A DNA stretch of 64,000 nucleotides from Psychromonas ossibalaenae ATCC BAA-1528 (GTDB lineage Bacteria > Pseudomonadota > Gammaproteobacteria > Enterobacterales > Psychromonadaceae). The translations under genes were made by a program, and so were the position numbers. Position 1 is the first letter of the stretch. Every line of letters begins with the position of its first letter. Below the pieces are notes generated by a model that was given only the letters and a program-made list of their open reading frames with translations, did not search any database and had not been told where the DNA came from. Shown here piece after piece: positions 8,075 to 63,812 of this stretch. The DNA lies in contig NZ_KB906975.1 in NCBI RefSeq assembly GCF_000381745.1, positions 47,441 through 111,440 on the forward strand, read 5' to 3'.

Positions 8075-10549
8075 ATGTTTTTGCAAACGTGGGAAGTTAA
8101 ACAGGGTGATCCGGTAAACCGCTTCAGAGTGTCAAAACCGATTGAAGCACGTTTTGCACAGTTTGATGAGCATGAAACGATGACTGATCGTGTGCAGTAT
8201 AAATTTGTCAATGGTTTCGTCGATGTAGGGGATCTGCCATGTAGAAAGATGTTCTGGCAAACTCATGCCGGCCGAGAGGTACTATTAGAGCAGTGCCCTG
8301 AGCTTGCTGATATTTATTTTGCTAACGGCAGCCACCGTGTTGAGTTTTCGGGATTTTCACATTATCCCGTTCATTCGCAAAGGTGGGCTGCATGCACTCT
8401 TCATGCCGATCAAGATGGTGTATTTAAGTTTAATTTATCAACTTGCGGCGGCGTTAGAGTTTGGGTTAACGGGCATCATTATACCGCATTTACGCCTTTT
8501 CAGAGAAATACAGAAAACAGCAGAGTGATAGAACTATCCTTATCTGAAGGCGAAAATGAAATTGTTGTTCACACTGAAGAACTTTTTGAGCGAGACACTT
8601 CATTCTATTTTGAATTACTGTATATCGGCACCAGTAAATTAGCTATTTCCCTTCCGCAAGTATGCACCAATACTCTGCAGAGTCTGGAGCAGTTTACAGC
8701 TGGTTTAAGTGCGAATATTAATATTAATGACCATCACCTTGAACTGAATGTATCAACAAGTTCTGCATATCCAGTCGTATTATCCGGTGAAATAATCGAC
8801 ATGCCTAATGAAGATGAAAATGCTTTTATTATCGAGCCTTTTGCTGTCTCTGGTGATGAGAAAACCATACGTTTACCCCTGCCTGTTGAATTAAAGCCGG
8901 CCCACTACAGTGTTAACATTAATTTTTGCGTAGGTACGCTGTCAATACAAAGGGCATTCGGCGTAAACATTATGCCTTTAGGTAAAGCCCTGCCGCGTCA
9001 AACCTTAGAAGAGCGTAAACAAGCCGCACTGCAGTATTCTGCTCGGGAAGGCATGGGGCGCACTGCAAAATTACTGGCAGTTTTAGAAACCGGTTTGAAT
9101 CTAGAGGATGCTGACGATATTTTAAACAGCACACTTAAAAAAATCAGTTTACGTGAAGACTGTTCCGATTTCTGGATGGTTTCTTTGTTATGGGTCTGGC
9201 ATAACCACGCCAATACTAAGCTGTCAGATAAAAGCTGGGACAGGGTTCGCTCTTCAATATTAGGTTATCGCTACTGGCTGGATGAACCTGGAAATGACTC
9301 TATGTGGTTTTGGAGTGAGAACCATGTTTTATGTTTCCATGTGTCCCAGCTGCTTGCAGGTCAGTTTTTCCCCAATGAGCTGTTTATTTGTTCAGGACGT
9401 AATGGCATCGAGCAGAAACGACTAGCTAAACAGCGCCTCAACCGCTGGTTTGAACATGTCATTGAACATGGTTTAACCGAATGGAATTCATCCTGCTATT
9501 ACCCGATTGATTATATCGGCCTGCTGGCGATTTATCAGTTATCTGATGATTTAGAGCTAAAGGAAAAGGCAGAAAAAGTGATTGACCGCCTGATGATAAT
9601 GGGCGCTGTTCATTATCAGGCAGGCGTAGCTGGAGGCACAATGGGACGTGTCTATGAAAAAGAACTGCTAGCCAATGAAATGACTGAGCTGGCAGGTTTT
9701 GGTCATGTGGCATGGGGAGACGGCTGGCATACGCGGATGTGTGCCTCGCTGCCGCTGTTCTGTATTAGTGATTATAAACCCAGCCGTTTTACTAGCAATC
9801 TCGCCAGGTTATCAGGATTAAATAGTATTGAAGCATTTTATACCCAGGGACTGGATCGCAGTGGAAAAGTGATTGCCTGGAAAGAGCCTGGAGTCATGCT
9901 TTCTTCTGCTGTTGATCATCATACAGGCCAACATGGTCATCAACAGCATGTGGTTGATATTCAATTTGCTCATACCCCTAAAGCAAGAGTCTGGGTTAAT
10001 CACCCCGGTGAAGAATTACCGGGTGGCGACGGGCGCCCGTCATACTGGGCGGGAAACGGTGTGCTGCCGCGAGTGATGCAGTATAAAAATCGTTCCATGA
10101 TGTTGTTCGATCTTGGGGATAAGGCCAGATTAAATTTTACTCACCTTTATCTGCCGGCAGAAAGTATCGAAAAAGTTATCGTCTCTGAGCACTGGTGTTT
10201 CCTATGTTCTGGTAAAGCTTATGCTGCTGTTTCAGCAAGTGAAGGGCTGCAGATGGTAACCGAAGGAGGCACTAGAGGGAAAGAGTTAAGAAGCTATGGG
10301 CAGCATTGCGCCTGGTTTATCGCAGTAGGGCATGGTGATAACGAGGATGATTTTAATAACTTTATGGCTCAGTTTAAAGATCGAGAACTGCTGCGCGGTG
10401 TTGATCCTGAGCCTGTCGTAAAAATCAATGATCCTGTTTATAACGAAATGAAACTAACCTGGTCGGGTCATTTTACTGTTAATAACGGTACTTATCAGTT
10501 TCCTGAAAATGTCATGGTTGATCCGGTCATTAATTTAAATGAGAAATAA
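8075..10549 (+). CDS. Unclassified 824-aa protein, probable oligosaccharide-processing enzyme
   Basis: No signal peptide or membrane segment is visible, so the protein is probably cytoplasmic. The first 300 residues look beta-rich (VNGHHYTAF, GENEIVVH), like the jelly-roll domains that flank glycoside hydrolases. The middle (about 310-620) is helical with many aromatic and acidic residues, such as FWSENHVLCFHVSQLLAGQ, WNSSCYYPIDYIGLLAIYQL and AWGDGWHTRMCASLPL, and suggests an (alpha/alpha) toroid. The last 200 residues again look beta-rich. That three-part build is seen in several hydrolase and lyase families. A GH105 gene follows after five bases, so action on an unsaturated or uronic-acid oligosaccharide is inferred. 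I cannot assign a CAZy family. AAGAGG before the ATG supports the start. Confidence 0.8.
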   Translation: MFLQTWEVKQGDPVNRFRVSKPIEARFAQFDEHETMTDRVQYKFVNGFVDVGDLPCRKMFWQTHAGREVLLEQCPELADIYFANGSHRVEFSGFSHYPVHSQRWAACTLHADQDGVFKFNLSTCGGVRVWVNGHHYTAFTPFQRNTENSRVIELSLSEGENEIVVHTEELFERDTSFYFELLYIGTSKLAISLPQVCTNTLQSLEQFTAGLSANININDHHLELNVSTSSAYPVVLSGEIIDMPNEDENAFIIEPFAVSGDEKTIRLPLPVELKPAHYSVNINFCVGTLSIQRAFGVNIMPLGKALPRQTLEERKQAALQYSAREGMGRTAKLLAVLETGLNLEDADDILNSTLKKISLREDCSDFWMVSLLWVWHNHANTKLSDKSWDRVRSSILGYRYWLDEPGNDSMWFWSENHVLCFHVSQLLAGQFFPNELFICSGRNGIEQKRLAKQRLNRWFEHVIEHGLTEWNSSCYYPIDYIGLLAIYQLSDDLELKEKAEKVIDRLMIMGAVHYQAGVAGGTMGRVYEKELLANEMTELAGFGHVAWGDGWHTRMCASLPLFCISDYKPSRFTSNLARLSGLNSIEAFYTQGLDRSGKVIAWKEPGVMLSSAVDHHTGQHGHQQHVVDIQFAHTPKARVWVNHPGEELPGGDGRPSYWAGNGVLPRVMQYKNRSMMLFDLGDKARLNFTHLYLPAESIEKVIVSEHWCFLCSGKAYAAVSASEGLQMVTEGGTRGKELRSYGQHCAWFIAVGHGDNEDDFNNFMAQFKDRELLRGVDPEPVVKINDPVYNEMKLTWSGHFTVNNGTYQFPENVMVDPVINLNEK

Positions 10550-28357: not shown

Positions 28358-29599
28358 ATGGCGCAATACAATCAAACTGAAAAAGAAGTAATAAGTTCGA
28401 ATATATCAACCTATGAGCCACTAAATAAAGACGCGGATTCAAAAGGAGTCGTTGATATGGCTAAATATAAACAGCCGGACGAAAAAGTCAGTTCTGAAAC
28501 ATCTGCTTTTGAACAAGTTATGTCGCAGATGAATATTGCGGATCGTCATGCATTTGACATGCAGTATGATAAATTTTGGGCTGAAGCAAGTGATGAAAGT
28601 GAACTGCTGTCAGTGCTTATTTGTGAGATCGATTTCTTTAAAGCTTATAATGATAATTATGGTCATCAGGCTTCCGCTTTCATGTTATTAGTGATCGGAC
28701 TGGCTTTAAAAAATACCTGTGAAGAATTCGGCTGTTTTCTAGCGCGTTATCGAGGTGACGAGTTTGCCATTTTGATTAAAGGGGGTGACGTTAAAAAAAC
28801 TCGTGATATTGCTGAAACACTGCGTCAGGCGGTTGAAAAATCTCGTACCGAGCATAATTTTTCTGATGTTAGTGATATCGTCACTTTAAGTATCGGTATC
28901 TCCAGTATTTTTCCTACCTCCATGAAAATTCTAATGAATGCCGCCGGCAGCGCATTAACTTCTGCGAAGGTATCTGGATATAACCAGGTTTGCGGACATG
29001 TTGAGCCTGAAGATAAAAATAGTGCTTTAATACCTGTTAGTGATACTCGACTAGCGACTCAGATAGAAGAACAGCTTGATACTGAAAAAGATGATTTTGA
29101 GCGTCTGATGAGTGAGATGAATATATTTGATCGTCGTGACTTTAACGGTTATTTTGTTAAAACCTGGCAGGAAGCAAGCAGAGGCAGTGAACTGCTTTCT
29201 ATGGTTATGTGTGAAATAGACTTTTTCCAGGCGTTTATGGATAACTATGAAAAAGAAACCAGTTATGATGTTTTGTTAATTGTTGCCTGCACATTAAAGA
29301 GTAAATGTGAAGAGTTCGATTGTTTCGTGGCACGCCTTGAAGGTGCAAAATTTGCTATTTTGATTAAAGGCGGCAATGCAACTAAAGGGCTTAAAGTTGC
29401 TGAGAGTATTCGAGTTGCACTTGAAGAGTTAAATGTTGAACATGCTCACTCACCAGTTAAGAACGCTCTTACTATGAGTATGGGTCTATCAAATATTTTC
29501 CCAAGTGAAATGAATTCAATGAAAATGCTGATGGCTAAAGTAGACAGTGCTTTAAGTGATGCTAAAGCCTCGGGTCATGATCAGATAAGCGTTAATTAA
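28358..29599 (+). CDS. Soluble protein with two GGDEF-like domains, one degenerate
   Basis: A 413-aa protein with no membrane segment. Domain 1 (about 50-213) has the diguanylate-cyclase pattern: CEIDFFKAYNDNYGHQ and signature RGDEF at 132-136, one residue off GGDEF. Domain 2 (about 246-413) is a clear copy at an offset of 196 residues (FERLMSEMNIFDRRDF, CEIDFFQAFMDNY), but its signature has become EGAKF (328-332). The first may still make c-di-GMP; the second cannot by known chemistry and may be regulatory. No RxxD inhibitory site precedes the first motif. The N-terminal 20 residues are also repeated at 34-52, and a second ATG at 28457 has a much better ribosome-binding site (AAAGGAG), so a shorter 380-aa form is possible. 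Confidence 0.85.
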   Translation: MAQYNQTEKEVISSNISTYEPLNKDADSKGVVDMAKYKQPDEKVSSETSAFEQVMSQMNIADRHAFDMQYDKFWAEASDESELLSVLICEIDFFKAYNDNYGHQASAFMLLVIGLALKNTCEEFGCFLARYRGDEFAILIKGGDVKKTRDIAETLRQAVEKSRTEHNFSDVSDIVTLSIGISSIFPTSMKILMNAAGSALTSAKVSGYNQVCGHVEPEDKNSALIPVSDTRLATQIEEQLDTEKDDFERLMSEMNIFDRRDFNGYFVKTWQEASRGSELLSMVMCEIDFFQAFMDNYEKETSYDVLLIVACTLKSKCEEFDCFVARLEGAKFAILIKGGNATKGLKVAESIRVALEELNVEHAHSPVKNALTMSMGLSNIFPSEMNSMKMLMAKVDSALSDAKASGHDQISVN

Positions 29600-55426: not shown

Positions 55427-56623
55427 GTGGTAATGCTTCGCGATAAATACTTTTATATTATTTCATTTCTCTCATCAGCTGCACTGACTGCTGTTATCTG
55501 CGGACTTGCTGAACTCCAGATTCTTAATGCTCTGACCCTGCTTCCTATTTTACTGGCGGCAATCATTTTGACTGCTTTGTTACTTATCAGCAAAGTTAAC
55601 AGTAAAAATCAGATTCGATATCAGTCTCAGCTTGCTGAGCAGGAGCCTCACAATTTAAAAATAGAGCAGGCAGTTGACGATTTTGAACACTTATTTGTTG
55701 AAGTGATTCCAGTTATTGAGAAACAGATAAACGTATCGAAAGATTTTGTGGAAAAAGAGATAACAACATTGACGGATACCTTTGTTTTGATGACTGAGCA
55801 GATCAGCCAGATTGAAGCAAGCCAGTCCGGGGGAAGAGGCGGTTTGATTGATCAATTGTTAACTGATTCAAAAGCGGTGCTTCTGCAGGTTTTTGAAGAG
55901 CTGAATCGTCTGAATAATGCAGAAAAGAGTATGGTTGAAGAGATTCGAACATTGTCGGCTCATACCCTGCAGCTGGATGAAATGGCTAAAGAGGTACGCA
56001 GTGTTGCGGATAATATCAACTTATTGTCGTTAAATGCAGCGATTGAGGCGGCTCGTGCAGGCGAGCAGGGGCGGGGGTTTGCAGTGGTAGCTGATGAAGT
56101 TAGAAAATTAGCACAAAGCTCTGCGGCAACAGGCGTAAGAATCAGCTCAACGGTAAGCGCAATAAATGATGCCATGAAATCGACCTTAGCGACGGTAGAA
56201 GTAACTAGAAATTCAGATGAAAAAAGCATCTGTGATCTGGAAACACATATAGAAGGTGTGTTATCTGAAATAAAAGAGTCGTTAACCTTATTTGAAAAAA
56301 GTACCGAAGTATTAACGGAGAATAACAGCAAAGTTCAGGAAGATATCTACCAGGTTATAACCACGCTGCAGTTTCAGGATCGCGTCTGTCAGATGCTTGA
56401 ACACGCTCAAAGTAATCTCAATGATCTGCTGAAAATTGCAGCCGGACATCATGCTGTTAAGTTACAGGATAAAGCGCAGCAGTCTATTTCGGTAAAAGAT
56501 ATTATGGACAATATGGAACTGCGCTACACCATGCCCGAAGAGCTGCTTAATCATCAGTCCGCAGTACAGCCGGATAAAAAAACGGCTCATGCAGCAGCAG
56601 GTGATGATCTTACATTTTTTTAA
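55427..56623 (+). CDS. Short methyl-accepting chemotaxis protein without sensor domain
   Basis: A 398-aa receptor-like protein, first gene of the chemotaxis operon. It starts at GTG. Two hydrophobic helices in the first 60 residues are joined by a short turn, so there is no periplasmic ligand domain and no HAMP. The signalling tip [31 protein letters not shown] is conserved. Near the C-terminus, [13 protein letters not shown] resembles a helix seen in CheZ and in CheZ-like receptors. It may sense membrane or cytoplasmic state, or help organise the array. The stop is 25 bases before cheY. Confidence 0.87.
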
Positions 56624-56648: not shown

Positions 56649-57023
56649 ATGGCTAAAACAATTATGGTTGTTGATGATTCAGCATCAATTAGACAGGTCG
56701 TGAGCCTGACTCTTAAAGGAGCGGGTTTTGAAGTGATTACCGCTAATGACGGTCAAGATGCGCTGGCAAAACTGCAGGCAAATAAAACCAAGATTAACCT
56801 CATTATTACCGATGTAAATATGCCGAAAATGGACGGTATTACCCTGGTAAAAGAAGCAAAAAAATTACCTGCATATAAATTTACGCCGATGATGATGTTA
56901 ACAACGGAAGCCTCCGATTCTAAAAAGCAGCAGGGAAGGGGAGCGGGCGCGAAAGCATGGTTAGTTAAACCATTTCAGCCTCCGATGCTATTAACAGCCG
57001 TTTCAAAACTCGTCTTACCTTAA
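56649..57023 (+). CDS. cheY: Chemotaxis response regulator CheY
   Basis: A 124-aa stand-alone receiver. Asp9-Asp10 bind Mg, Asp55 (IITDVNMPKMDG) is phosphorylated, Thr85/86 is the switch residue and Lys107 lies in WLVKPF. It has no output domain. As this cluster is probably not the main flagellar system, its target could be something other than the flagellar switch. Confidence 0.93.
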   Translation: MAKTIMVVDDSASIRQVVSLTLKGAGFEVITANDGQDALAKLQANKTKINLIITDVNMPKMDGITLVKEAKKLPAYKFTPMMMLTTEASDSKKQQGRGAGAKAWLVKPFQPPMLLTAVSKLVLP

Positions 57024-57048: not shown

Positions 57049-57375
57049 ATGGCGATTGAAATTACAAATACCAATGACTTAGAAACGCTGATAAATATTA
57101 ATGATGAAATGACAATTTATACCGTACTTGAGCAGAAAAACTGTCTGTTAACACATCTGCAGGCCGGGCATACACTAAATATTGATTTGTCGGCTGTCTC
57201 TGAAATTGACAGTGCAGGTATACAGTTATTAATTTTTATGAAAAAAACGGCTGATAAATTAGACAGTGACTTCAACCTGCTGCATCACAGCCAGTCTGTT
57301 TTCGAGGTGATTGAACTGTTTAATTTAACTGATTTTTTTGCCGATCCTATTGTGCTGCCAGCTGAGTGGAAATAG
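57049..57375 (+). CDS. STAS-domain protein of the chemotaxis operon
   Basis: A 108-aa anti-sigma-factor-antagonist-like domain. IDLSAVSEIDSAGIQLLIFM includes Ser55, the residue phosphorylated in SpoIIAA-type proteins. It lies between cheY and cheA, an arrangement found in several accessory che clusters. A role as a binding adaptor in the array is an inference. Its stop is two bases before the cheA ATG. Confidence 0.87.
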   Translation: MAIEITNTNDLETLININDEMTIYTVLEQKNCLLTHLQAGHTLNIDLSAVSEIDSAGIQLLIFMKKTADKLDSDFNLLHHSQSVFEVIELFNLTDFFADPIVLPAEWK

Positions 57376-57377
57376 TC

Positions 57378-59534
57378 ATGAATGATTTAGATGCTGCATT
57401 AATTACCTTTACCCAGGAAGCGCAGGAGCTGCTGGATGAAATGGAAAGTTCACTGCTTGTGTTAGAAGACACGCCGGATGATGCTGAAGTGATTAATTGT
57501 GTATTCAGGGCGATGCATACCATTAAAGGGTCGTCGGGATTATTTGGTTTTAATCATATTGTTAGCTTTACCCATCAGGCTGAAACGGTTTTAGATCAGG
57601 TTCGTGATGGAAGCCGGCAGATTGATGCACAGTTAATCTCGGTATTATTAGACTGCCGTGATCATACTGCCCGGCTGCTTGCATACAGTCTGGAGTATCC
57701 GGACCAGCCTCTGGAAGAGGAGCTGCAGAGAAACGGTGAGCTGTTAAGCGAGTGTCTTACTCCTACACAGTCATCTGCAGTAAAGGGACAGGCAAGGACT
57801 GAAAATATTGAGTTAGAAAATACTTCGGAAGAAAAGAACAGCGCTGATTTGAACGGTAACTGGCTGATCACGCTTCTGTTTAAAAAAGATGCCTTCAGAA
57901 TGGGGGTTGATCCTCTGTCGTTTATTCGTTACTTGAAAACATTGGGAGAGATCAGAGCACTTTTACTTTTTGATAAAGCGGTTCCAGAAGGGGATGAGTT
58001 CGATCCGGAGAGCTGTTATCTACATTATAAAATAGCTTTTTCAAGTGAAGCAGATAAACAGCAGATTGAAGATGTTTTTGAGTTTGCTGCAGATGACTGT
58101 GAAATTAAAATCTTAGCCCCATCGGCAAAATCAGTTGAGTACTTAGCGTTATTGGAAGATCTGCCTGAGGATGAAATAGCTCGTTTAGGTGAAATGTTAG
58201 TTAAAGTAGGGGTGTTAACCGTCAATGATGTTGCCAGGGCTCTGCATACTCAAGGTAGTTCTCAAGAAGAGTGCAGACCGCTCGGCGAAATACTGGTTGA
58301 GCAGAATGTTATTCAGCCGAAAATTATTGAGCAGGCGATAAAAAAACAGCAGCAGGTAAAACAAAAAGTTTCTTCTGAATCCAACTATATCCGTGTTGAT
58401 TCAACAAAATTAGGACACTTAATTAATTTAGTCGGCGAGCTGGTTATTTCCGGAGCCGCCATGGATTTAATGATTGAAAAAAGCGGACTGGATGAAGCTG
58501 AGGAGGTCTCGGCTACCATGTCGTCTCTGGTGAGTAACATTAGGGATACCGCATTAGAATTGCGAATGGTACCGATTGGTGAAACATTTTCCCGTTTTAG
58601 ACGTGTCGTTCGTGATGTCAGTAAAGAGCTGGGTAAAAATATTGATCTTGAAATAACCGGCGGTGAAACCGAGCTTGATAAAACGGTTGTTGAGAAGATC
58701 AACGATCCGCTTACCCATCTTATCCGTAATTCATTAGACCACGGCATTGAATCACCAGAGCAGCGTTTAGCCGCTGGAAAGTCAGAGCAGGGTTCTATTC
58801 ACCTTAATGCATTTCATGATTCCGGGCATATTGTTATTCAAATTGTTGATGACGGTGCCGGCCTTAATAAAGATAAAATATTAGAAAAAGCGGTTGCTAA
58901 AGGCATAGTTACTGAAGAAGCAAATCTTTCCGATCAGGAAATTTACAATCTGATCTTTGCCGCCGGTTTAAGTACCAAAAAACAGGCTAGCGATCTTTCC
59001 GGACGTGGTGTCGGCATGGATGTGGTACGCAGAAATATTGAAGGTTTACGCGGCAGTGTCAATATTGACAGTATTGAGCATCAGGGGACAAAAATAACTA
59101 TACAGCTGCCTTTAACGCTGGCAATTATTGATGGTTTTATGGTTGGTGCTGATGGTGAGCGTTACATCATTCCTCTGAGCATGGTTGAGGAATGTGTCGA
59201 AATGAATGAAAAAGAGTGGCAGCTTGATGCCGTGCAGAATTACGTCAATCTGCGCGGCAGTGCAATGCCCTATTTAAAACTTTCAGAGTATTTTAACCCG
59301 GGTAAACAGTTTGGCAAAAGATCACGACAAAGTCTGGTCGTTGTACGAGTTGGTAAAGAACGCGCCGGTTTTGTGGTAGATGAATTACACGGTGAGCAGC
59401 AGACGGTAATTAAACCGCTAGGACAAATTTTCGAGAATATAGAGGGGTTAAGCGGGGCCACCGTCTTAGGTGATGGAAATGTTGCGCTGATCCTTAATGT
59501 AAAAAGCTTAATTAATAAGGTAACGGTAGTTTAG
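57378..59534 (+). CDS. cheA: Chemotaxis histidine kinase CheA with MshEN-like insert
   Basis: A 718-aa kinase. P1 (about 1-105) has phospho-acceptor His47 in AMHTIKGSSG. A middle region (about 160-250) looks like an alpha/beta P2-type or adaptor domain. Residues about 269-324 contain two 24-residue repeats with the MshEN pattern (LGEMLV...Q and LGEILV...Q), not part of a standard CheA. P3-P4 follow, with HLIRNSLDHGIE (N box), DDGAGL and GRGVGMDVV (G boxes), then a CheW-like P5 (about 570-715). I chose ATG 57378, two bases after the STAS stop; a GTG at 57366 overlaps that gene. Confidence 0.93.
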   Translation: MNDLDAALITFTQEAQELLDEMESSLLVLEDTPDDAEVINCVFRAMHTIKGSSGLFGFNHIVSFTHQAETVLDQVRDGSRQIDAQLISVLLDCRDHTARLLAYSLEYPDQPLEEELQRNGELLSECLTPTQSSAVKGQARTENIELENTSEEKNSADLNGNWLITLLFKKDAFRMGVDPLSFIRYLKTLGEIRALLLFDKAVPEGDEFDPESCYLHYKIAFSSEADKQQIEDVFEFAADDCEIKILAPSAKSVEYLALLEDLPEDEIARLGEMLVKVGVLTVNDVARALHTQGSSQEECRPLGEILVEQNVIQPKIIEQAIKKQQQVKQKVSSESNYIRVDSTKLGHLINLVGELVISGAAMDLMIEKSGLDEAEEVSATMSSLVSNIRDTALELRMVPIGETFSRFRRVVRDVSKELGKNIDLEITGGETELDKTVVEKINDPLTHLIRNSLDHGIESPEQRLAAGKSEQGSIHLNAFHDSGHIVIQIVDDGAGLNKDKILEKAVAKGIVTEEANLSDQEIYNLIFAAGLSTKKQASDLSGRGVGMDVVRRNIEGLRGSVNIDSIEHQGTKITIQLPLTLAIIDGFMVGADGERYIIPLSMVEECVEMNEKEWQLDAVQNYVNLRGSAMPYLKLSEYFNPGKQFGKRSRQSLVVVRVGKERAGFVVDELHGEQQTVIKPLGQIFENIEGLSGATVLGDGNVALILNVKSLINKVTVV
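58182..58349 (+). other. MshEN-like tandem repeat inside cheA
   Basis: The coding segment specifies two 24-residue motifs: R-L-G at the start, L-V at positions 6-7, G at 10, hydrophobic pair at 11-12, L at 21 and Q at 24 in copy one. Copy two has P-L-G, L-V, N at 10, V-I, I and Q. The spacer is eight residues against five in canonical MshEN. MshEN domains bind c-di-GMP with high affinity in MshE-type ATPases. Copy one is well conserved and copy two has lost the arginine, so binding is plausible but unproven. Confidence 0.6.
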
Positions 59535-59579: not shown

Positions 59580-62354
59580 ATGAACTTAAAAAATGTATCA
59601 ATGAAGGTGAAATTAGTTGGATTAATGCTGTTGATCAGTTTAATTCCGCTGGTGATTATCGCGTATTTTTCATCAGGAAGTGCATCAGATGCATTATTTA
59701 AAGAGTCTTTTAAGCAGCTCAACGCAATGCGCACGGTAAAGCATACCCAACTGGAAGGTTTTTTTGATGAACGTGAATCAGACCTAGGAGTGTTGATGGA
59801 AACAACATCTGCGCTGCTTGATTCACAGGTATCAAAACTGCTGGCATTGCAGGATTTAAAAATATCCAGCATGGAAAACTTATTTAAAGCGACTGAAGCG
59901 AATATTAATATCGCTAAGGATGATCCGTATTTATCAGAAGGTTTTTATGCCATTAATAATGTCTTTGAATTCGGTATTGGATCAGAACAGTGGCTGCAGC
60001 AGGTTGAGCAGTACGATCCTCGTTTTAAAGATATTGTTAATGATACCGGCTGGCATGATCTGTTTTTAATCAATCCGCAGGGCAATATTATATACAGTAC
60101 GGCTAAAGAGTCGGATCTGGGATTGAACCTTTTTAATGATCCGCTGCTGAAGAACAGTTCATTAGCTGGCGCGTTTGCGAAGGCTGTTAAGGGCGGGCAG
60201 GAAGAGTTGGCGATTGGTGATTTTAAACCCTATGAACCTTCTAACGGCGATCAGGCTGCATTTGTGGTCGGCAGACTGCAGTTTGCAGAAGGTTATATTG
60301 CAATGCAGTTGTCCCCGGATCCGATTAATACAATTGTACAGCCGCGTATCGGTATGGGAGAAACCTCTGAGAGTTACTTAGTTGGACAAGTCGATAATGT
60401 CAGCAGCTACCGAAGCGATCGTGTTATCAAGTCGGGAAAAATAGGTGGAAAAAAATCCAGTGAACTTATAAAACAGGCACTAGCTGGTCAATCTAAAACA
60501 GAAATTATGGTTGGTAGTACCGGCACTGTTGAACTGGTGGCGGCCAGTCCGCTAAATATCAATGGACTTGACTGGGTATCGGTCACTTCCGGCAGCCTGG
60601 AAGAAGTATTAGCAGTTAAGGCTAAAGGGGATTCACAGGATTATTTTGAAAAGTATGTAGAAAAATACGGCTATTATGATTTGTTCTTAATTCACCCTGG
60701 CGGACAGGTATTTTACAGTGTCACTAAAGAAAGTGATTATCAGACCAATATGGTCAATGGTAAATTCCGTGATTCAGGTCTGGGTAAGTTAGTACGCCAG
60801 GTTTTACAAACAGGGCAGTACGGCATTACAGATTTTGCCCCTTATGCGCCGAGTAATGATCAGCCGGCTGCTTTTATAGCGCAGCCGTATATGAAGGACG
60901 GAAAAGTTGAACTGATTGTGGCACTGCAGCTTTCCTTAGGTTCAATCAACGCAATAATGAATCAGCGCGATGGAATGGGGGAAACAGGAGAGACTTATCT
61001 GGTAGGGCAGGATAAATTAATGCGCTCCGATTCATTTCTTGATCCCTCGGGACATTCTGTAGCCGCTTCTTTTGCAGGTAATGTCAAAAATAACGGTGTA
61101 GATACTGAAGCCGTTAAAGATGCGCTAAACGGTAACAGCGGCTCTAAAATCATTGAGGATTATAATGGTAATTCAGTATTGTCTTCCTATTCTCCAATAG
61201 AGGTGGGCGGTACAACCTGGGCAGTTATTGCTGAGATTGATAAGGCGGAAATAATGCTTCCGGTGGAAATTCTGATTAAAAATATTTCAATAATTTCAGC
61301 TGTATTCTGCATCTTAATTATTATTGTTGCTTACTTTTTTGCCCTTAGTATTACCAGGCCGGTTATTAAAGGTGTTGTATTTGCACAGGAATTATCAAAA
61401 GGTAATCTGATTGCTCACCTTGAAGTTGATCAGAAGGATGAAATTGGTCAGTTAAGTAACGCATTGATTGTAATGCGCGATCAAATAAAAGGTGTGATTG
61501 AAACCGTGCGCAGCGGCGCTGATAATTTAGCAAGCGCCTCGCAGGAGGTCAGTGCAACGGCTCAGACTATCAGTCAGGGAGCGGTCGAACAGTCAAGCAG
61601 TGTTGAAGCAACCAGTACATCGGTAGAGCAGCTCAATTCGTCTGTGCAGCAGAATGCGGAAAATGCCAGTGTCACCGAAAAAATGGCTACCAGCTCTGCA
61701 GGTGATGCACAGCAGGGGGCTACTGCGGTAACAGATACCGTTACCGCGATGAAGCATATTGCTAAGAAAATCCGCCTAATTGAAGATATTTCTTATAAAA
61801 CCAATTTATTATCGTTAAATGCCGCTATTGAAGCCGCTTCTGCCGGAGAGCACGGCAAAGGGTTTGCCGTTGTTGCCGCTGAAGTAAGAAAACTTGCTGA
61901 AAGCAGCCGTGTTACTGCGGAGGAGATTAGTGAGCTGGCAGGTGACAGTGTTGATATTGCAGAAAAAGCGGGTGTGTTAATCACTGAGGTAGTGCCAAAT
62001 ATAGTTAAAACATCTGATTTAGTGCAGGAAATAAGTGCATCTTCAGGTGAGCAGGCAAGCGGTATTGCGCAGATTAGTGATGCGATGAGTCAGCTTGATA
62101 AAGCGACGCAGCAAAATGCGGCCGCTTCCGAAGAGCTCGCCGCCACCTCGGAAGAATTAAGCGGTCAGGCGGAGCAGCTGCAGCAGTCTGTTGCATATTT
62201 TAAACTGACTGAAGGCGGCAGTATAACAGCGGATCCCGCACAGGACTCTATTCACCTGAAGCGGCCAATGGTTGCGGTACGCCCGGAACATGTAACCCGC
62301 CCGGCTAGTTTAAATGAATCACATATTAATGAGCAGGACTTTGAAAAGTTTTAA
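59580..62354 (+). CDS. Large chemoreceptor with duplicated sensor module
   Basis: A 924-aa receptor. TM1 about 11-31; a long periplasmic part (32-565); TM2 about 567-588; HAMP; signalling bundle with tip [38 protein letters not shown] (named here only by its key residues E-A-G-K). The periplasmic part holds two copies of one module, about 145-345 and 355-558: DLFLINPQG and [15 protein letters not shown] and [19 protein letters not shown] and [13 protein letters not shown], at offsets of 207-215 residues. The last residues DFEKF loosely resemble the NWETF tether for CheR. It is between cheA and cheW. Confidence 0.9.
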
Positions 62355-62413: not shown

Positions 62414-62962
62414 ATGAATGATTTAAGCATTAATAAAGATCAGGTTCGCAGTCACGAAACTGCAGCTGTAGAGCAGCAGGGGCAGTATTTGACATTTTTA
62501 GTTGCTGATGAAGCACTTGGTATTGCGATTAACGATGTAAAAGAGATTATTGAAATAACCAGTATTACCCGTGTGCCTATGACTCCCGACTATATTCGCG
62601 GAGTGATTAACTTACGCGGTAATGTCGTGCCTGTTGTGGATCTGTCTGCGCGTTTAGGTCATCAAGTCAGCGAGCTGAGTAAACGCAGCTGTATCGTTTT
62701 AGTGGAAGTAAGCTGCAATGATGAGAAGCAGAGTCTCGGCATGCTGGTGGATCAGGTAAAAGAGATATTAGATATCCCTGAAGATCATATTCAGCCTGCT
62801 CCAACCTTTGGTACGAATATTCGCGTTGAATTTATTCAAGCTATGGGACGTGTTGAGGATGAGTTTATTATCCTGCTGGAGATCAGCAGGGTTTTATCTG
62901 TTTCAGAACTAGCTGAATTAAGTTTAATGACAGCTGCAGAGCCTGCTCCTGTTTTAGCATAA
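62414..62962 (+). CDS. cheW: Chemotaxis coupling protein CheW
   Basis: A 182-aa single-domain adaptor linking receptors to CheA. YLTFLVADEALGIAINDVKEII, PDYIRGVINLRGNVVPVVDLSARLG and FIILLEISRVLS are the family segments. The N-terminal 25 residues are a flexible extension. AGGAG lies eight bases before the ATG. Confidence 0.93.
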   Translation: MNDLSINKDQVRSHETAAVEQQGQYLTFLVADEALGIAINDVKEIIEITSITRVPMTPDYIRGVINLRGNVVPVVDLSARLGHQVSELSKRSCIVLVEVSCNDEKQSLGMLVDQVKEILDIPEDHIQPAPTFGTNIRVEFIQAMGRVEDEFIILLEISRVLSVSELAELSLMTAAEPAPVLA

Positions 62963-63008: not shown

Positions 63009-63812
63009 ATTTCTATTCAGATCACAACTCCCGAGTTTGAATTGTTCCGTCATTTTATTCATCAACATGCGGGCATTGATTTATCTCCTGCTAAAAAGGT
63101 GATGGTCGGCGGACGATTACAAAAAAGAGTGAACCATTATCAGCTTGCCAGTTACGAGCAGTACTACCATATAGCAACCCACCCGGATAACGGTCAGGAA
63201 TTACAGTTATTAGTCGATATATTAACCACTAATGAAACTTATTTTTTCCGTGAGCCAAAACATTTCAGCTATTTCGAAAAAGAAATATTAGCAAAATGGA
63301 AAACCGGCCATTTCAAGGTCTGGAGCGCTGCCAGTTCTAGTGGTGAAGAGGCCTATTCACTGGCGATGCTGCTGGCGGAAAAATCAGGAACAAAAACCTG
63401 GGATATATTAGGCACGGATTTAAACCGTGATGTTTTAACAAAAGCATCTCGGGGGATTTACGGTATGGATCGAGTCGAACTGCTGGATCCCTATTTAATG
63501 AATAAATACTGTCTGAAAGGTGTTCGTTCACAGCAGGGCTTATTCTGCATCGCTGATAAGTTAAAACAAAAGGTCAGTTTTCACCGTTTGAATTTAACGC
63601 AGAGTCTTCCCGGTAAAATCTCTATGTTTGATGTTATTTTTCTGCGTAATGTACTTATCTATTTCAACAATGAAACCAAAAAAAAGGTTGTTGAACAGCT
63701 TATTTCAAAGTTGAAACCCGGAGGGTATTTTTTTATCAGTCATTCAGAAACCCTATCCCGGGTAACCGATAAACTGGTGATGGTAAAACCTTCCATCTAT
63801 AGAAAAAAATGA
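63009..63812 (+). CDS. cheR: Chemotaxis methyltransferase CheR with probable ATT start
   Basis: A 267-aa SAM-dependent methylase of receptor glutamates. [18 protein letters not shown] begins the N-terminal helical domain; [15 protein letters not shown] is the SAM site and RNVLIYFN the catalytic-domain motif. The family-like start ITTPEFELF lies upstream of the only standard in-frame start (TTG 63042), and in that stretch the plausible initiation codon is ATT at 63009, five bases after AGGGGA. An ATG at 63004 is in another frame. It overlaps cheD by four bases (ATGA). Confidence 0.85.

Follow-up and report, generated by a model that had tools for sequence, protein, structure and literature searches.

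The closest described relatives of the element treated here are the MshEN domains of the ATPases MshE and PilF. In MshE, a single cyclic di-GMP (c-di-GMP) is described as spanning two sequence motifs, in which Gly3 (through its backbone amide) and Gln24 are the polar ligand contacts. Wang et al. 2016 (PMC5013675) named the chemotaxis kinase CheA among MshEN partners in one main-text sentence, and the main-text parts covered here describe no work on the kinase. We analyzed a 64,000-nucleotide stretch of Psychromonas ossibalaenae ATCC BAA-1528 (GCF_000381745.1, contig NZ_KB906975.1, positions 47,441 to 111,440; hereafter the window, whose own numbering is used below), which encodes a CheA with such an insert. 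The initial annotation of the window knew of no standard CheA of this kind; the domain pairing is not new, because it was already stated in Wang et al. 2016 (PMC5013675). A study of an MshEN-bearing CheA was not found in the open-access literature, mostly searched at listing level, nor were phrases such as "CheA binds c-di-GMP" found in the open-access literature searched, and the parts covered of PMC12943098 (CheA only), PMC10212136 (MshEN only), PMC12564702, and PMC10333796 do not join the two. The present analysis contributes a fold prediction, a conserved site, the module's location between P2 and P3, and its association with a single type of gene cluster.

We propose, with a probability of roughly 0.7, that residues 267–327 of this CheA form an MshEN_N-type c-di-GMP receptor module that tunes the kinase. 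The CheA is complete, with the order P1 (Hpt), P3, P4, and P5 confirmed by Pfam, and the module is placed between a P2-like domain and P3. An alternative in-frame GTG lies 12 bases upstream of the cheA ATG. The features of the gene are as follows.

57378..59534, + strand: CheA histidine kinase, 718 aa, ATG start, stop included (codons 57378–59531 plus stop)
57399..57656, + strand: P1, Hpt domain, residues 8–93 (PF01627, 6.5e-16)
57852..58121, + strand: P2-like ferredoxin-fold domain, residues about 159–248
58176..58358, + strand: MshEN_N four-helix module, residues about 267–327
58182..58253, + strand: MshEN motif 1, residues 269–292, contact positions G271 and Q292
58278..58349, + strand: MshEN motif 2, residues 301–324, contact positions G303 and Q324, Pro at position 1 and Asn at position 10
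58383..58553, + strand: P3 dimerisation domain, residues 336–392 (PF02895, H-kinase_dim)
58704..59117, + strand: P4 ATPase domain, residues 443–580 (PF02518, HATPase_c)
59133..59519, + strand: P5 CheW-like domain, residues 586–714 (PF01584)

The initial annotation had described two 24-residue repeats at residues 269–292 (RLGEMLVKVGVLTVNDVARALHTQ) and 301–324 (PLGEILVEQNVIQPKIIEQAIKKQ), and these coordinates proved exact, as did the spacer of eight residues between them. Motif 1 fully fits the relaxed MshEN motif of Wang et al., in agreement with the annotation. Motif 2 lacks the Arg and the Gly, as had been noted, with Pro at position 1 and Asn at position 10; Pro at position 1 is permitted by the relaxed motif (Wang et al. 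2016, PMC5013675), and the sole deviation from it is at position 10, where Gly, Ala, or Ser is wanted. Position 1, usually Arg, Lys, or Leu in MshEN, is Arg in motif 1. The contact residues Gly3 and Gln24 are present in both motifs, and positions 2, 17, and 21, which are L, V, and L in motif 1 and L, I, and I in motif 2, are all hydrophobic. When the CheA sequence was shuffled 20,000 times, the published pattern gave 16 matches in total and two looser patterns, our own versions of it, gave 90 and 35, and none of the three patterns matched twice in any one shuffled sequence.

In profile searches, NCBIfam NF053729.1 ("c-di-GMP_motif, MshE-related") matched residues 269–324 over profile positions 1–53 of 53 at 45.0 bits (cut-off 38; E 6.7e-12), and it matched 34/34 related segments at E<=0.001. 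Pfam MshEN (PF05157) gave no match in the CheA and, at E<=0.01, none in the 50 relatives scanned; this 90-position model probably leans on the MshEN_C subdomain, which is missing from the CheA module. The initial annotation had held that the absence of a profile hit would speak against the module: NF053729 lies above its cut-off and PF05157 misses the CheA, so the outcome depends on the profile library. The closest sequence in the PDB by phmmer was PilF (6f8l, E 3e-8, both motifs covered), and a profile built from 50 related modules found PilF 6f8l (3.3e-21), PilB 5zfr (1e-10), and the c-di-GMP-bound MshE 5htl (2.3e-6) and PilF GSPII-B 8pdk (7.2e-6). BLASTP of the module against the N-domain of the host's own MshE-like ATPase aligned just 29 residues (E 0.002). 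The tail of NCBIfam NF008411 (NfrB) matched residues 245–334 with 22 bits, far below its whole-protein cut-off. Because of the profile, phmmer, and shuffle results, the motif pair lies far beyond chance, and the repeat pair is confirmed as real. Besides the expected domains, the only Pfam match on the CheA was DUF4388 (58161–58367), below its cut-off, in which motif 2 resembles positions 50–75. DUF4388, also called PATAN, was matched by 12/50 relatives at E<=0.01 and may contain an MshEN-like helix pair.

The predicted structure of the module, compared with PDB chains, has the four-helix MshEN_N fold. When the module was modelled alone, the top eleven PDB chains were all c-di-GMP-bound MshE or PilF GSPII-B (root-mean-square deviation 1.1–1.7 Å); no match reached E<=1e-3 (best 0.13) because the query is short, and the case is carried by ranking and deviation. 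With a model of P2 plus the module, Foldseek gave no MshEN chain among the 50 matches listed and no match of any kind at E<=1e-3, and in a further comparison of that model one MshEN chain ranked second. The fold of the module is predicted confidently, and the model fits ligand-bound structures best. Helix 4 (residues 314–335) reaches the start of P3 in the model, with a mean predicted local distance difference test score of 81 for residues 325–334 and below 60 from residue 335 onward. Together, the NCBIfam match, the profile search of PDB sequences, and the fold comparison support the annotation's reading of the repeats as an MshEN module.

Gly3 and Gln24 of both motifs were kept in 33/33 CheAs of a set that joined L036, L043, and L044 to 30 of the full-length places (35 in all) from an order-level search. 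In an enlarged set of 69 CheAs (these 33, 29 from a class-level search, and 7 from the search that also gave L104–L113), 66 kept all four positions; the exceptions were L072, in which motif 2 is decayed, and L075 and L102, with Asn and His, respectively, at motif 1 Gln24. The enlarged set left out L034 and L035 (judged by identity to be already present as L005 and L006), L037 (the short-spacer Halanaerobacter type), the CheAs without a module in the profile scan (L038–L042, L045, L076, L078–L084, and L091–L094) or by eye (L103/L115 and L114), those with remnants (L077, L085, and L095), the distant CheAs L086–L090, whose repeats keep the four positions by eye in L087–L090 and not in L086, and L104–L113, which were read separately; L072 was retained despite its lost motif 2. 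Mean pairwise identity of the module in the 69 CheAs was 41%, and of its 48 columns the four contact ones fell within the seven that vary least. Position 1, motif 2 Gly10 (present in 38/69), and the spacer (5 to 23 residues) were variable. Thr13 of motif 1 (67/69) and Ala20 (68/69) and Lys23 (66/69) of motif 2 were also near-invariant; none is a named ligand contact in the parts of the sources covered. In this CheA they are residues 281, 320, and 323 (58218–58220, 58335–58337, and 58344–58346), and Lys23, which adjoins Gln24, could touch phosphate.

At the order level, the module was aligned through at 35 places in 33/394 genomes, and within the genus in 5/24 genomes, the genome studied here included. 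At the class level, 36 places in 30/369 genomes matched from the query start with at least 240 bits, a threshold of our own choice applied to at most eight candidates per genome, and some weaker full-length matches fall below it. The CheA of Psychromonas aquimarina, which has the module, is 96% identical to that of the window, and those of a Psychromonas metagenome-assembled genome (MAG) and a Piscirickettsiaceae MAG, also with the module, are 67% identical each. In the Piscirickettsiaceae cluster (L036), CheY is 82% identical to that of the window; either gene transfer from one family to the other or misbinning would account for this cluster. Module-bearing CheAs are also encoded on plasmids of Aeromonas sp. 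BC14 and Pseudomonas sp. HR96. Related CheAs without the module occur in Xanthomonas sacchari and at L078, L082, L103/L115, and L114, and remnants of it are present in L077, L085, and L095. In ten chosen CheAs from other classes of the phylum (L104–L113), motif 1, judged by eye, is kept in three (L104, L110, and L112) and clipped without Gln24 in seven. In these seven (L105–L109, L111, and L113), motif 2 follows motif 1 with no spacer, a natural contrast of a fold without the full site. A CheA tree (quick method, midpoint root) did not show a single origin of the module: the 63 rows labelled full need nine changes, four of them forced by strong branches, and L090 and L089 have very long branches.

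The departures of motif 2 from the MshEN norm can be compared with other MshEN proteins, some of them reported binders. In PilF GSPII-C, Pro335 at position 1 of motif II is the sole deviation, and the domain is assigned a c-di-GMP dissociation constant (KD) of 324–460 nM (PMC11731258; PMC12002112 words the two PilF affinities in reverse order). PilF GSPII-B, in which Lys and Leu replace the Args, is reported to bind at 6 nM, and 2 nM is given for the K167L variant (PMC11731258); the doubt over the missing Arg is weakened because both domains are reported binders. An isolated MshEN_N without MshEN_C, which the CheA module also lacks, is reported to bind at 0.35 uM (PMC5013675). The spacer of GSPII-C is seven residues in the phmmer alignment. 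For the missing Gly the comparison is one of sequence: the solved PilB 5tsg (Geobacter) likewise carries Asn at position 10 of its motif 1, and the host's MshE-like ATPase has His at this position of motif 1. On this comparison, the three doubts (no Arg, no Gly, and a longer spacer) appear weaker than they looked.

If the module works as proposed, one c-di-GMP would lie across both motifs, the backbone amides of G271 and G303 would read the guanine edges, the hydrophobic residues at positions 2, 17, and 21 would stack against the bases, and ribose and phosphate would be held by Q292 and Q324. The first turn of helix 1 must unfold for binding in PilF GSPII-B, according to its published description. 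In the CheA, binding would probably fix the start of helix 1 at the P2–module junction and stiffen helix 4 at the module–P3 junction. With the junctions fixed by the ligand, the reach of P1 and P2 to the ATPase domain may change, and with it the flow of phosphate to the CheY of the cluster. The motifs, the family match, the predicted fold, the position in the protein, and the conserved contact residues are results of this analysis; that the ligand binds, how tightly, and in which direction and by what route it would act on the kinase are inferred, and sequence does not tell activation from inhibition.

Several points weigh against this proposal. All 69 CheAs were found with queries that included the module, so intact modules are favoured in the set. 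Position 17 is not Leu in either motif, nor is position 21 in motif 2, and these less Leu-like positions remain a real reason to expect weaker binding. In MshE, changing Gln32 or Arg9 is reported to have an effect of about fivefold at most, while in PilF GSPII-B a single Gln-to-Glu change is reported to weaken binding to about 500 nM and the double change to abolish it. MshEN domains that do not bind nucleotide have been described (PMC12002112, PMC5013675), and the repeats remain in the seven CheAs of other classes that lack Gln24 of motif 1, so the fold can persist without the full site. The last two points, with the deviating hydrophobic and turn positions, are what the main alternative draws on: the module would keep the MshEN fold without binding nucleotide and would serve as a docking surface or spacer near P3, as in GspE/XpsE and PilF GSPII-A. 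We hold this to be less likely: were the role purely structural, there would be no evident need for Gly3 and Gln24 in each motif, and yet 66/69 CheAs keep all four. In XpsE, by contrast, both Gly3 residues and one of the Gln24 residues are gone (G11V, G40L, and Q61V; PMC5013675), and the module model fits ligand-bound structures best.

It is much less probable still that the main ligand is another cyclic dinucleotide such as cyclic GMP-AMP (cGAMP). Vibrio cholerae MshE is reported to bind 3',5'-cyclic AMP-GMP as well, at an affinity hundreds of times lower (KD 3.3e-4 M) than that for c-di-GMP (KD 5.0e-7 M), and the retention in both motifs of Gly3, whose amide reads guanine, points to two guanines. 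A chance repeat in an unstructured P2–P3 linker would find a parallel in L076 and L079, whose P2–P3 linkers look low-complexity; the NF053729 match, the 20,000 shuffles, the conservation across many families, and the confident fold refute this explanation and leave it barely any probability. A c-di-GMP receptor module remains our preferred reading of residues 267–327.

The cheA gene lies in a chemotaxis cluster at the end of the window, which has the following other genes.

55427..56623, + strand: short methyl-accepting chemotaxis protein (MCP) signal-domain protein without a HAMP match, first gene of the cluster (PF00015)
56649..57023, + strand: CheY-like response regulator (PF00072)
57049..57375, + strand: STAS-domain protein (PF13466, PF01740)
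59580..62354, + strand: MCP (PF00015, PF00672)
62414..62962, + strand: CheW (PF01584)
63042..63812, + strand: CheR (PF01739), with CheD and CheB expected past the window end

An MCP gene stands at the same place as the first gene in the Aeromonas and Pseudomonas plasmid clusters. When 18 kb around each of 20 chosen relatives was compared, the STAS gene directly preceded cheA in 19, the exception being L134. The commonest order, in Gammaproteobacteria, was MCP-CheY-STAS-CheA-MCP-CheW-CheR-CheD-CheB; variants had extra or missing matches to MCP, CheW, or CheD, and half of the cluster was inverted in L127. A GGDEF or EAL match lay near the cluster in 4/20 relatives (L119, L122, L123, and L127), as searched with one GGDEF and one EAL query and no control loci. 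This link to c-di-GMP enzymes was given no weight in favour of the proposal, since genes of this kind are plentiful and there was no control. With 71 GGDEF matches in the host genome, c-di-GMP should be present. One such gene lies in the window (28358–29599, + strand; a 413-aa protein with two tandem GGDEF domains), and a second gene with two GGDEF matches, one 430-aa frame, lies elsewhere in the host genome (G000:C8:9790–10833). In the X. sacchari plasmid NZ_CP010410.1 (172800–192000; L116), a related STAS-CheA cluster has the CheA without the module and an EAL-domain response regulator between CheW and CheR; a stand-alone CheY is not listed in its gene table, which is incomplete. Here c-di-GMP may act at the output rather than the input. 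Elsewhere in the window, an 824-aa open frame (8075–10549, + strand) had no Pfam match at E<=1e-5.

Known links between c-di-GMP and chemotaxis, namely PilZ adaptors such as MapZ and PilZ chemoreceptors, act on receptors, methylation, or the motor; a receptor domain within CheA would place the second messenger on the kinase itself. We see about even odds that, throughout a widespread gammaproteobacterial branch with MCP-CheY-STAS-CheA clusters, cytoplasmic c-di-GMP feeds directly into the kinase. If so, receptor signals and the biofilm second messenger would converge on one CheA in these arrays, and the P2–P3 linker would be a sensor site open to evolution that has disappeared or decayed in some lineages. 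The segment is small and expressible, and loss of the four contact residues is predicted to uncouple the c-di-GMP input.

Compared with V. cholerae MshE (5htl), the CheA module sits in a kinase instead of an ATPase, has a spacer of eight residues where MshE has five and Pro where MshE has Arg at position 1 of motif 2, and makes no Asp108 contact because the MshEN_C alpha/beta subdomain is missing. It resembles Thermus thermophilus PilF GSPII-C in its pattern of RLGE followed by PLGEILVE, with Pro at position 1 of motif 2, whereas GSPII-C has Gly at position 10 and Leu at position 21 of motif 2, a third motif, and an ATPase context. Like the C-terminal domain of the glycosyltransferase NfrB, it is an MshEN-like stretch fused to an unrelated enzyme. 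Its cluster may be of the che2 type of Shewanella oneidensis, which is described with an anti-sigma factor antagonist and two MCPs besides CheA, CheY, CheW, CheR, CheD, and CheB and as broken by transposases in strain MR-1 (PMC9855816); this comparison is one of gene content only, the window holding MCP-CheY-STAS-CheA-MCP-CheW-CheR, and the gene content reported for che2 is that of the commonest cluster order in the relatives. With Wang et al. 2016 (PMC5013675), the locus shares the domain pairing itself.
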